Below are positions 10,371 through 22,513 of a DNA stretch of 38,596 nt, piece after piece. Position numbers and translations under genes: made by a program. The DNA is from an uncultured Opitutia bacterium. GTDB taxonomy: Bacteria; Verrucomicrobiota; Verrucomicrobiia; Opitutales; Opitutaceae. A model generated the notes under the pieces. It had not been told where the DNA came from and did no database searches. It worked only from the letters and a program-made list of their open reading frames with translations. Numbering within the stretch: the stretch's first letter is position 1; every line of letters begins with the position of its first letter. The DNA lies in contig CAIPZZ010000053.1 in NCBI GenBank assembly GCA_903869665.1, positions 1-38,596 on the forward strand, written 5' to 3'.

Positions 10371-10438
10371 TGGCGCATGGGCTTGCCGCCGTCCACGCCG
10401 AGCTGACGGATGAAATACGGGGCGGCGCGGGTGGAGTC

Positions 10439-10501
10439 GGTCAACGGCGCGACGCGCTTTTCATCACAGCCTCTTTTCTTGGCTCTGGCGCCTTGTTCGG
10501 C
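10439..10501 (-). repeat. attC-like imperfect hairpin
   Basis: The plus strand begins GGTCAAC (6 of 7 to RYYYAAC) and ends GTTCGGC (6 of 7 to GTTRRRY), 63 nt apart. Next to these, AACGGCGC at the left pairs with GCGCCttGTT at the right, leaving two unpaired bases. An inner AGCC/GGCT pair follows. Size and plan match integron attC sites, but the outer boxes pair only partly. The site lies exactly at the 3' end of the orphan gene on the minus strand, as expected for a gene cassette, and encodes its C-terminal NKAPEP motif. No integrase is present. Confidence 0.35.
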
Positions 10502-10935
10502 TCTTCTCGCGCGATGACTCTACCGCCTAGAATAGTCCAAAGCTTGATCGCGCCGCTGTGGGCCAGCTTGCGAGCATTGGGTCCGAGCCACATCGAACGG
10601 TATGATGTCGCGCTGCCAGGAATGGTGATATTCTCTGCTACAAGCCGATTCCAATAACGTTTCCTTACCCAACTACGCATCTTCGTATACAGACGCTCCG
10701 CGTCCTGCGTCTCCGGAATCACCTTCTCTCCAAAATGGGTCGCTATAGCGATACGGCCGAGTGCGACACGATCTTCGGACCTAGGACTTGGTGAGAATTC
10801 CACGCCGACCGCCCCGACGCGGAACAGCCAGCGATCCGCCGATTCTTGGTCCACGACGTCAGCCTGATCCGCGAATTCCGAAACGAACTCCCGTTGATCC
10901 GCCTCTGACATGAAGAACTGAAGCTGGCCACGCAT
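10441..10935 (-). CDS. Hypothetical protein, possible gene-cassette ORF
   Basis: 164 residues of unknown family, soluble, with no signal peptide and no catalytic motif that I recognise. The middle part has the regularity of a real protein (GRIAIATHFGEKVIP, TKMRSWVRKRYWNRL). Base composition is clearly less GC-rich than in the flanking genes, consistent with foreign origin. The last 20 or so residues, starting with NKAPEP, are translated from the attC-like hairpin that ends the gene. A nearly perfect 8-bp-arm palindrome lies about 30 bases upstream of the start. The start could be the ATG at 10935 or an internal ATG (MSEADQ, 10911). Confidence 0.6.
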   Translation of the reverse strand: MRGQLQFFMSEADQREFVSEFADQADVVDQESADRWLFRVGAVGVEFSPSPRSEDRVALGRIAIATHFGEKVIPETQDAERLYTKMRSWVRKRYWNRLVAENITIPGSATSYRSMWLGPNARKLAHSGAIKLWTILGGRVIAREEPNKAPEPRKEAVMKSASRR

Positions 10936-10963
10936 GAGTTTCTTTGCCGAACAGTATTATTCG

Positions 10964-10980
10964 GCTGCACTCAGTGCAGC
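10964..10980. repeat. Perfect short palindrome gctgcact-c-agtgcagc
   Basis: Eight-base arms flank a single base, extended outward by ttcg/cgaa with one bulged base. It lies just upstream of the orphan gene on the minus strand and could be an operator or part of a mobile-cassette boundary. The rest of the 288-nt space down to the hsp20 terminator holds nothing else I can identify. Confidence 0.5.
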
Positions 10981-11141
10981 ACGAACGGGGTTGAGGTTGA
11001 CGGGGTGAGCTCGCATAGGAGGCGAAGGCTAGTCGGTCACGAAACAGGAGTTTGCGATGAGCGCAATGGGGAAGAGGCGGTGGGTGCAGTTTCCGGCAAA
11101 AGCTGCACTCGCACGCCAGATGGGCCGCAAGCCAGTCCTGC

Positions 11142-11180
11142 AAAAATTACGGGCGGACGTCGGCCAGCGACGTCCGCCCG
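11142..11180 (-). terminator. Rho-independent terminator of hsp20
   Basis: A perfect 12-bp stem (arms 11150-11161 and 11169-11180, CGGGCGGACGTC/GACGTCCGCCCG) encloses a 7-nt loop. On the minus strand the stem is followed by taattttt. It lies 44 bases beyond the hsp20 stop. Confidence 0.75.
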
Positions 11181-11893: not shown

Positions 11894-11965
11894 GTAGGGG
11901 CGCAGTCTTGCTGCGCCCGCTTGGGCGGACGTTGCGTGAAGGGCGCAGCAAGACTGCGCCCCTAC
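11894..11965. repeat. Inverted pair of GTAG-footed REP-like elements
   Basis: Two 25-nt arms (11894-11918 and 11941-11965) are perfect reverse complements separated by 22 nt. Each arm is itself a hairpin: GTAG foot, then GGGCGCAG-tcttg-CTGCGCCC. This is the architecture of a bacterial interspersed mosaic element built from two REP units facing each other. It lies in the 395-nt divergent region between hsp20 and the aminotransferase gene, which otherwise holds the hsp20 leader and no recognised gene. Confidence 0.9.
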
Positions 11966-18644: not shown

Positions 18645-20468
<1,824 letters not shown>

Positions 20469-20488
20469 GCGCGCCCCCCCTCGTTTCT

Positions 20489-20520
20489 GCCGGCCGCCTG
20501 CGAGGGCTGCCGGCTTTTTT
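20489..20520 (+). terminator. Rho-independent terminator after first PII gene
   Basis: Hairpin GCCGGC-cgcc...ggct-GCCGGC (20489-20514) is followed by six T residues. It separates the first PII transcript from the sigma-54 promoter of the transporter gene. Confidence 0.8.
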
Positions 20521-20580
20521 GTGTCCGGCCCCGATGATGAGCCGTATTTTTTATTCAATGAATGAAATTGATGCGAGTCA

Positions 20581-20596
20581 TGGCACGGGGTCTGCT
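20581..20596 (+). promoter_or_regulatory. Sigma-54 (-24/-12) promoter of the ammonium transporter
   Basis: TGGCACGGGGTCTGCT matches the RpoN consensus TGGCACGNNNNTTGCW at all but one defined position, with correct GG-to-GC spacing. The predicted transcript start is near 20607, only about six bases before the ATG at 20613, so the message would be almost leaderless. It excludes the upstream in-frame start at 20562. An NtrC-like activator is expected; no clear upstream binding site was seen. Confidence 0.8.
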
Positions 20597-20612
20597 AAAT
20601 CTGCTGTCGAAA

Positions 20613-22148
20613 ATGAAATCATCCCTCCAAAAACTCGGCCGCCTCCTTGGCTGCCTTTTCGCTCTCGGCCTCGCCAGCTCGCTGGCCCGTGCCGCTGACG
20701 CCGCGGCCGCCCCGGCGGCTCCCGCTCCCGCCGCAGCTGCGGCGGCCACCCCCGCAAAACCGGAGCCGACTCTGGAGCAGCGTTTGGCCACCGTGGAGGC
20801 CTATGTCACCAACAGTGACCCGTCCGGGCCGCTGAAGGATGCCAAGGGCAAAGTGCCCGACGGCCTCGCCACCCCCACCTCCGCCACCTCCGGCCCCGGC
20901 CACAACGGCTTCATGATGATCTGCGCCGCGTTGGTGCTTTTCATGACGCTGCCCGGCCTCGCGCTGTTTTACGGCGGCTTGGTTCGGAAGAAAAACGTCC
21001 TCTCCGTCCTCGCCCAATGTTTGGGCATCACGGGCCTCGTCACCATCCTCTGGTGGGCCTTCGGCTACAGTTTCGTTTTCGCCGGTGGCGACGGCGCGGG
21101 CGCGATCATGGGTGATTTCACCAAATACGCTTTCCTTAAGGGCGTGGACTCCGTGCCCAACGGTGACTACAGCTACTGGGTTTCCCAGAACGTGTTCTCC
21201 ATGTATCAGATGATGTTCGCCATCATCACCCCCGCGCTGATCGTCGGCGCCATCGCCGAGCGCATGAAGTTCTCCGCCATCATCCTCTTCGTCACGCTCT
21301 GGATGCTCGTGGTTTACTTCCCGCTCGCCCACATGGTCTGGGGTATCAAGGGCCTCATGAACGGCGTCTGGAATGCCGACGCTGCCATCAAGGCGATTGA
21401 CTTCGCCGGCGGCACGGTCGTCCACATGAGCTCCGGTTGGTCCGCGCTCATCCTCTGCATCATCCTCGGGCCCCGGCTCGGCTTCGGCAAAGAGAAGATG
21501 GCCCCGCATAGTATGGTGCTCTGCATGGTCGGCACCGGCATGCTCTGGGTCGGCTGGTATGGCTTTAACGCCGGTTCGGCGGTCGCGGCTGACGGGGTTG
21601 CCTCTAACGCCTTCCTGACCACCACGCTCGCCGCTGCTGTCGCCTGCTTCGTCTGGGGCGTCATCGAGAAAATCCACCGCGGCCACGCCTCGATCCTCGG
21701 GTTCTGCTCGGGCGCGGTCGCCGGCCTCGTCGTCATCACGCCGGCCTGCGGTTTCGTCAACGCCACCGGCGCGGTCATCATCGGCGTGCTCGCCGCTGTC
21801 GTGCCTTACATCTTCGTCACCTTCGTGAAGGCGAAGTTCGGCTACGACGACGCGCTCGACACCTTCGGCGTCCACGCCGTGGGTGGCACGATGGGCGCGC
21901 TCGCCACGGGCTTCCTCGCCACGGCCGACGTGAACGCCAACCTCAACACCAACCTCAAGGATATCATCGGCAAGACGCTCTGGCTTGAGCAGGTCAAGGC
22001 CATCGGGGTCACGCTGGTGCTCGCGATCGTCGGCACCATCATCATCGCCTACATCGTCAAGGCCACCATCGGCCTCCGTCCCACCGAGGAGGTCGAGCGC
22101 CAGGGCCTCGACATCAACGAGCACAACGAAGAGGGCTACGTCCTCTGA
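20613..22148 (+). CDS. amt: Ammonium transporter (Amt/Mep/Rh family)
   Basis: 511 residues. A signal-peptide-like N terminus (1-30) is followed by an Ala/Pro-rich linker (about 31-55), a short helical extracytoplasmic stretch, and then the eleven-helix Amt core from about residue 95. Key motifs are FYGGLVRKKNVLS, DFAGGTVVHMSSG and FGVHAVGGTMGAL, the last two holding the paired pore histidines. The C-terminal tail, which contacts PII in homologues, is RQGLDINEHNEEGYVL. It imports ammonium under nitrogen limitation, as the sigma-54 promoter suggests. It is cotranscribed with the second PII gene 26 bases downstream. Confidence 0.95.
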   Translation: MKSSLQKLGRLLGCLFALGLASSLARAADAAAAPAAPAPAAAAAATPAKPEPTLEQRLATVEAYVTNSDPSGPLKDAKGKVPDGLATPTSATSGPGHNGFMMICAALVLFMTLPGLALFYGGLVRKKNVLSVLAQCLGITGLVTILWWAFGYSFVFAGGDGAGAIMGDFTKYAFLKGVDSVPNGDYSYWVSQNVFSMYQMMFAIITPALIVGAIAERMKFSAIILFVTLWMLVVYFPLAHMVWGIKGLMNGVWNADAAIKAIDFAGGTVVHMSSGWSALILCIILGPRLGFGKEKMAPHSMVLCMVGTGMLWVGWYGFNAGSAVAADGVASNAFLTTTLAAAVACFVWGVIEKIHRGHASILGFCSGAVAGLVVITPACGFVNATGAVIIGVLAAVVPYIFVTFVKAKFGYDDALDTFGVHAVGGTMGALATGFLATADVNANLNTNLKDIIGKTLWLEQVKAIGVTLVLAIVGTIIIAYIVKATIGLRPTEEVERQGLDINEHNEEGYVL

Positions 22149-22162
22149 GTCTCAACCCATAA

Positions 22163-22513
<351 letters not shown>

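Follow-up and report, generated by a model that had tools for sequence, protein, structure and literature searches.

The 164-aa gene on the minus strand of the window appears to be an integron cassette that the integrase IntI placed in a dispersed attI platform lacking an adjoining integrase gene, and that was later fixed there by a deletion that removed half of its attC, a reading to which we assign a probability of about 0.86. The window is the whole stretch of DNA that was analyzed, 38,596 nt of contig CAIPZZ010000053.1 from an uncultured Opitutia bacterium of the Opitutaceae (assembly GCA_903869665.1).

According to this reading, the locus would be a minimal integrase-less integron unit, the platform of which consists of a left half with the attI core and a right half, block X, and this short platform lies at many chromosomal places. 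IntI, encoded elsewhere or since lost, would have acted in trans to recombine the attC of the circular cassette with attI between G and TT, which would have left the cassette's own TTCGGC at the left junction and the TTAGGC of the platform, followed by X, on the far side of the attC (right). Expression of the gene would presumably start from the platform leader. A later deletion, probably between the GAGCCAA in the L'' arm of the attC and the GAGCCAA in X, would have taken out the L'/R' half, with the consequence that the cassette is probably no longer excisable and its frame continues as NKAPEP...SASRR. The sequence itself establishes the identity of the attI, the limits of the cassette, the truncation of its attC, and the presence of dispersed copies with other cassettes, whereas the action of IntI in trans, the deletion, expression, and the manner in which attI spreads are inferences.

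On the minus strand, the order is block Y including the attI core (11110-10946), the gene (10935-10441), the attC 5' arm (10501-10479), and block X (10485-10413). The features are as follows, with a caret marking the inferred crossover here and below:

11150 to 11180, minus strand: terminator-like hairpin with a 13-bp stem and a T tail, between the upstream same-strand gene and the platform (consensus match only)
11077 to 11110, minus strand: left end of block Y, an GAGTGCAGCTTTTGCCGG-type inverted-repeat arm common to units C212 and C266 (blastn between units and alignment)
10966 to 11037, minus strand: C-rich leader left of attI (alignment of 66 attI)
10980 to 10964, minus strand: palindrome at the end of the leader (base pairs co-vary across the family)
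10946 to 10965, minus strand: attI core GCCGAATAATACTG^TTCGGC, with the inferred crossover between 10952 and 10951 (sequence pattern and position relative to intI in the family)
10441 to 10935, minus strand: captured cassette gene, 164 aa, the homologue of which is a cassette in genome G065 (ORF and homologue search)
10479 to 10501, minus strand: attC 5' arm (R'' GCCGAAC and L'') without a 3' arm, translated as PNKAPEP (attC models)
10413 to 10485, minus strand: block X, the right half of the platform, overlapping the attC arm by GAGCCAA (alignment)

The cassette gene, its attC remnant, and block X

A previous inspection of the letters alone, referred to here as the sequence-only reading, had described a foreign-looking gene unrelated to known families, and both descriptions agree with the present results. 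The GC content of the gene is 56.8% against 66.3% for the window and is lower in just 19 of 763 sliding 495-bp windows, while its product, with the C-terminal end ...EEPNKAPEPRKEAVMKSASRR, had no matches in Pfam, PADLOC, or plasmids (tblastn), nor in viral contigs searched with patterns for close relatives. The structure model of the protein was poor (mean pLDDT 54.7) and was left out of the reasoning. The sole homologue among 288 genomes of the phylum, 42% identical over residues 1-146, is located in G065 (C2) in a stretch with eight attC matches (60.9-80.2 bits); it starts after G^TTCGGC and its end runs into its own attC. Together with the attC 5' arm and the complementarity of the junctions described below, this homologue supports the core idea of the sequence-only reading that the gene is an integron cassette away from any detected intI.

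The gene starts 10 bp past the attI core. A scan limited to the sigma-70 type found no promoter consensus between 10380 and 11220, terminator-like sites numbered 2 against 0.7 expected in shuffles, and no Rfam family matched within the window. Elsewhere in the window, two copies of GTAGGGGCGCAGTCTTGCTGCGCCC, a short palindrome resembling a mobile repeat, lie in inverted orientation near the unit at 11894-11965, and an ORF resembling an ammonium transporter is placed between two near-identical PII-like ORFs on the plus strand (approximately 20130-22513; named by eye). The contig starts with CGTGTGCTCTTCCGATCT (positions 1-18), which we take to be an Illumina adapter that was probably left untrimmed.

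When a profile derived from 25 family attCs was applied, the 5' arm of the attC at 10501-10479 (GCCGAACAAGGCGCCAGAGCCAA) reached 35.4 bits and the profile members 27.1-37.2 bits, whereas the next best place in the window reached 8.5 bits and the best of 20 shuffled windows 17.9 bits. In contrast, the best score for a 3' arm within 200 nt was -2.6, compared with 16.9-36.0 for the members. A covariance model built from 25 attCs near family attI sites (from 36 listed, the window attC not included) gave 16.8 bits for the window against 65.5, 63.3, and 62.2 bits for the intact attCs of C212, C90, and C266 in the same genome, which are themselves among the 25 model sequences; when the genome was searched with this model, the window had an E value of 0.40, near noise, with 150 of 2796 candidates scored. 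Folding was not discriminating because the three intact attCs (z -0.29 to -1.27) were no better than the 64-nt window site, which folds in an ordinary manner (z -0.96 and 0.15 on the two strands, with 35/200 and 103/200 shuffles at least as stable).

These scores bear on the proposal of a complete single attC at 10438-10501, a 63-nt hairpin bounded by two core sites, in which the attC arm and block X had been taken for a single site. Its 5' arm is genuine, and its 3' arm is missing; the second core site, GGTCAAC at 10439, is a coincidence inside block X, given that GTTGACC is absent at that position from all six other aligned copies of X. With a model score close to noise in addition, we rejected the complete site as extremely improbable. 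Of the two observations that were to tell against the hairpin, namely, no hit to an attC model and no second copy in the genome, the former was nearly made; however, block X causes the region to recur at five further genomic places. The suggestion that NKAPEP is translated attC sequence was correct for this gene, since the arm GCCGAACAAGGCGCCAGAGCC is translated as PNKAPEP. Judging from its sequence, the gene is a former cassette that is no longer mobile, with the 5' arm present and a complete attC absent at the 3' end. In G002, a genome of the same genus, the cassettes at two of the three attI sites (L130, L132) likewise terminate in attC 5' arms that, as assessed by eye, have no 3' arm to match.

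Block X, which spans approximately 70-90 bp, was aligned in seven units of the genome, and a similar sequence was matched by eye after an attC in C22. The attC preceding it is intact in C212, C266, and C90, where X comes immediately after GTTAGGC, such that TTAGGC plus X represents the platform half on the right-hand side. The attC arm of the window and that of C171 pass straight into block X at the 7-mer GAGCCAA, which occurs both in family attC arms (e.g., L063 and L144) and in the X of C212, and a deletion between two GAGCCAA copies would be the simplest account of this join. The window and C171 have the same join with different cassettes, which would require that deletion occurred twice at the same microhomology or that some exchange took place, and this counts against our main reading. 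Block X was rejected as a family-wide element because, among the 57 genomes searched (56 relatives and the genome of the window itself, G000), it had only three short weak matches outside G000, one of which (L046) is inside an ORF, the others being L044 and L045; this restricted occurrence also counts against our main reading.

attI sites and their cassettes in the genome and the family

At least eight attI sites (seven by pattern, plus that in C171) are present in the genome of the window, none with a detected intI. The seven units with an assembled right end have block X in common, and the eight cassettes are unrelated to each other (best cross-match E 0.82). The search for an IntI integrase recommended by the sequence-only reading found none above the family cut-off among the candidates scored; the weak tyrosine-recombinase matches are three ORFs that resemble XerC, XerD, and a phage integrase by eye. 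No intI similarity was found on the 27.6 kb of the window upstream of attI, and the assembly, at 89% completeness and in 276 contigs, could lack an intI, which counts against our main reading. The C90 unit is 157 bp from a contig end, with its upstream side beyond the contig. Further matches to the attC model of at least 22 bits occur in C160, C84, C22, and C247 without an attI-like site in the adjoining stretch, except that C160 has one attI-like place with five mismatches; C84 and C247 have a near-identical attC arm and right flank in common.

The second block shared by the units, Y, was found upstream of the genes by blast between units and alignment, and ends in GCC(G/T)AATAACACTG^TT(C/G)GGC. 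Allowing up to two mismatches, we located this pattern at 60 places; they come from 25 of the 95 genomes searched, all of them members of the family of the window. The reversed pattern gave 3 places, and viral contigs had no match. In a collection of named sequences, 15 of the 16 stretches with exact matches are from Verrucomicrobiota, with titles that mostly indicate Opitutaceae or Opitutae; the remaining one, from Marinicella (L085), is probably due to chance and was excluded from the attI alignment. The 16-bp core AATAACACTGWTNGGC has 107 exact sites in 54 of 150 family genomes, compared with 0 for the reversed control. The window copy carries one substitution within the 20-bp core, which counts against our main reading. 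Together with the position relative to intI given below, these comparisons identify the end of block Y as a copy of the attI that belongs to the integrons of this family, a feature (10965-10946) that the sequence-only reading had overlooked; the cassette was inserted at an attI copy and not at a random place.

Removal of copies with more than 93% identity left 71 attI sequences, of which 66 were used in the alignment after L131, L143, L153, L155, and L157 had been left out. Base pairs of the palindrome at attI were kept in 61.7% of the cells versus 51.4% when shuffled (0/500 as good) and 29.5-37.0% when slid; RNAalifold predicted no pairs on the alignment of the region, even though this small palindrome co-varies. 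A second inverted repeat is found in block Y of L012, L013, and L129 at approximately -180 to -120 of attI, and its stem changes together with the attI palindrome between subtypes (the GAGTGCAGC type versus the CTTTGGC type).

Of the 107 attI cores, 22 adjoin an intI match, taking in fragments and matches below the cut-off (E up to 1e-30); 21 of these are at 524-688 bp and one at 1216 bp, and intI is always divergent, with none in the wrong orientation. The other 85 in the 150 family genomes have no adjoining match, a count that takes in three plus-strand sites too near the contig start to tell, the check for contig limits covering sites on this strand, and the site in G031 C258, where tblastn shows an intI fragment. 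These unlinked sites divide into 48 in 27 genomes with intI matches elsewhere and 37 in 23 genomes with none, where none means none among the at most 13 candidates scored per genome and is, for this reason, not proof of absence. By tblastn, intI similarity was detected at 27 of 101 loci, a few of them redundant, and in every case it lies upstream of the attI site and reads away from it. The single-contig genomes G008 and G148 each have one linked attI plus unlinked ones, and G007, also a single contig, has two attI sites and no intI match; contig breaks are thus not the explanation in these genomes.

At 57 loci, all 64 strong attC matches are downstream of attI on its strand and none upstream; these are 64 of 71 matches, the seven excluded for an E value above 1e-5 including two opposite-strand echoes of strong attCs and the window itself. 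The first attC is within 1600 nt of attI at 12 of 15 loci beside intI, with L082 (an intI fragment), L083, and L086 counted as such, and at 23 of 42 others, some loci being short downstream of attI (312 nt in L129, 777 nt in L136). A crossover at G^TT predicts that the left boundary of a cassette is complementary to its own R'', and this was found: among 24 first cassettes with a readable R'', 21 have a junction 7-mer exactly complementary to it (0/1000 partner shuffles as good), and the three mismatching cassettes count against our main reading. The window has GTTCGGC at its left boundary and GCCGAAC as its R'', with 0 mismatches, and is one of the 6 of 7 checkable units of its genome in which the two are complementary, the seventh having one mismatch. 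These junctions suggest that recombination at G^TT was catalyzed by IntI.

A second class of cassettes (L016, L128, L164, L186, L191, and L193) has the core triplet GAT...ATC in place of GTT...AAC. All 6 first cassettes that have a GAT junction show exact pairing of the boundary GATCGGC or GATCGCC with the R'' GCCGATC or GGCGATC, and GAT junctions make up 15 of 101 attI junctions, redundant loci counted. The integrase seems to accept this changed crossover triplet. A repeated motif, AAGGGGTCA..TTT, adjoins array ends in G008 and lies near arrays in G067 (L149 +800, L156 +712, L143 +341, L141 +1854, L144 +1093, and L157 +852 from attI); in G008, it comes after truncated attCs, and in L143, it is followed by an ORF start resembling a Y1 (REP-associated) transposase by eye. 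An insertion into attC is possible.

Origin of the attI copies

Two main origins of the attI copies may be considered, the copying of short platforms and the loss of intI from whole integrons, and both may hold. We tentatively propose, at somewhat below even odds, a distributed integron in which short promoter-plus-attI platforms multiply over the chromosome separately from intI and receive their cassettes in trans through an IntI encoded at one place or brought in from outside; single cassettes would each stand first behind their own platform instead of being queued in one array, and the loss of half an attC would make some of them permanent. Such copying and filling is suggested by block X, which the seven units with a Y-type left side and an assembled right side share while holding unrelated cassettes. 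The alternative that whole integrons were duplicated or acquired, with intI and most cassettes decaying thereafter, is in our opinion possible but less likely than not; the sites without intI would then be leftovers that capture nothing today, and the window cassette would have entered while intI was still adjacent. The intI fragments that persist beside L082, L155, and L197 in tblastn indicate decay, attC truncation in G002 and at the array ends of G008 resembles it, several intI-bearing copies in G070 and G073 share 1.3-1.5 kb, and the 37 unlinked sites in genomes without any intI match are as expected. This alternative is at odds with the 48 sites in genomes with intI matches elsewhere and with the left flank that, in 8 of the 11 genomes compared, at least one unlinked site has in common with the linked one; this flank extends for 121-387 bp and ends before intI. 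In G073, G105, and G008, as well as at other sites in those eight genomes, the shared left flank is short, mostly 0-19 bp and 73 bp in one case.

The same homology over 121-387 bp, together with a core count far above chance, makes it very improbable that the cassette entered an attG-like secondary genomic site with a convergent resemblance to attI, an off-target route of the kind mentioned in the available text of PMC12901181 and PMC11023631. If Y and X were the termini of an unrelated transposon or REP-like element, with the gene as cargo, this would fit the recurrence of both flanks in the genome and the lack of an intI-linked counterpart of X among the relatives searched. We nevertheless regard such an element as improbable because intact attCs lie between the gene and X in C212, C266, and C90, the end of Y is the attI found beside intI elsewhere, and the eight units have no terminal repeats by eye and no transposase of their own between Y and X.

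Relation to known integrons

In the usual description of integrons, every intI has a single adjoining attI, and cassettes distant from attI are said to be poorly expressed. Dispersed attI sites without an integrase gene would give a genome many first positions, and would explain lone cassettes that are missed by tools built on attC clusters and intI. The 16-bp core provides a sequence handle for counting such sites, the half-lost attC may represent a route from a mobile cassette to a fixed chromosomal gene, and the recurring C-terminal NKAPEP is explained, at least in this gene, as a translated recombination site. Among the titles and opening abstracts searched, with most subscription papers and all preprints outside this scope, there was no report of dispersed or integrase-less attI, and no earlier description of the family-wide attI sequence was found, which is weak evidence of novelty.

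The layout AATAA...TG^TTRRRY, with a cassette and its attC downstream, is the same as that of the attI of class 1, class 2, and chromosomal integrons, for which the available text of PMC12901181 prints the core consensus 5'-AAACAAAGTTRRRY-3' and 5'-AATAAAATGTTRRRY-3'. Where intI is present in this family, it is divergent and approximately 0.5-0.7 kb away, and most copies differ from those integrons in having no adjoining intI match, in being several per genome, and in having few cassettes each in the loci read. In archaeal integrons, attI immediately adjoins intI, as far as the available text of PMC9668308 describes them.

CALINs, clusters of attC for which the default of IntegronFinder 2 is a minimum of two sites according to the available text of PMC9024848, share with the window the presence of cassettes without intI. 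The window holds no complete attC and so does not form a cluster of at least two; in contrast to a CALIN, it has an attI, and its sole attC is a half site. Insertion at attG, reportedly described by Loot and colleagues in 2024, is said to place cassettes at divergent genomic sites outside the integron. The shared trait is a single cassette outside an integron, whereas the target in the present case is a copy of attI homologous to intI-linked attI and not a divergent genomic site. In delta-attI cassettes, as presented in the available text of PMC12901181, a deleted attI replaces the attC of the cassette. Within the limits of that text, the two cases are alike in that an altered attC stabilizes the cassette and attI sequence is found outside its usual place, and they differ in that the attI of the window is upstream of the gene and its attC is truncated into the platform sequence X.
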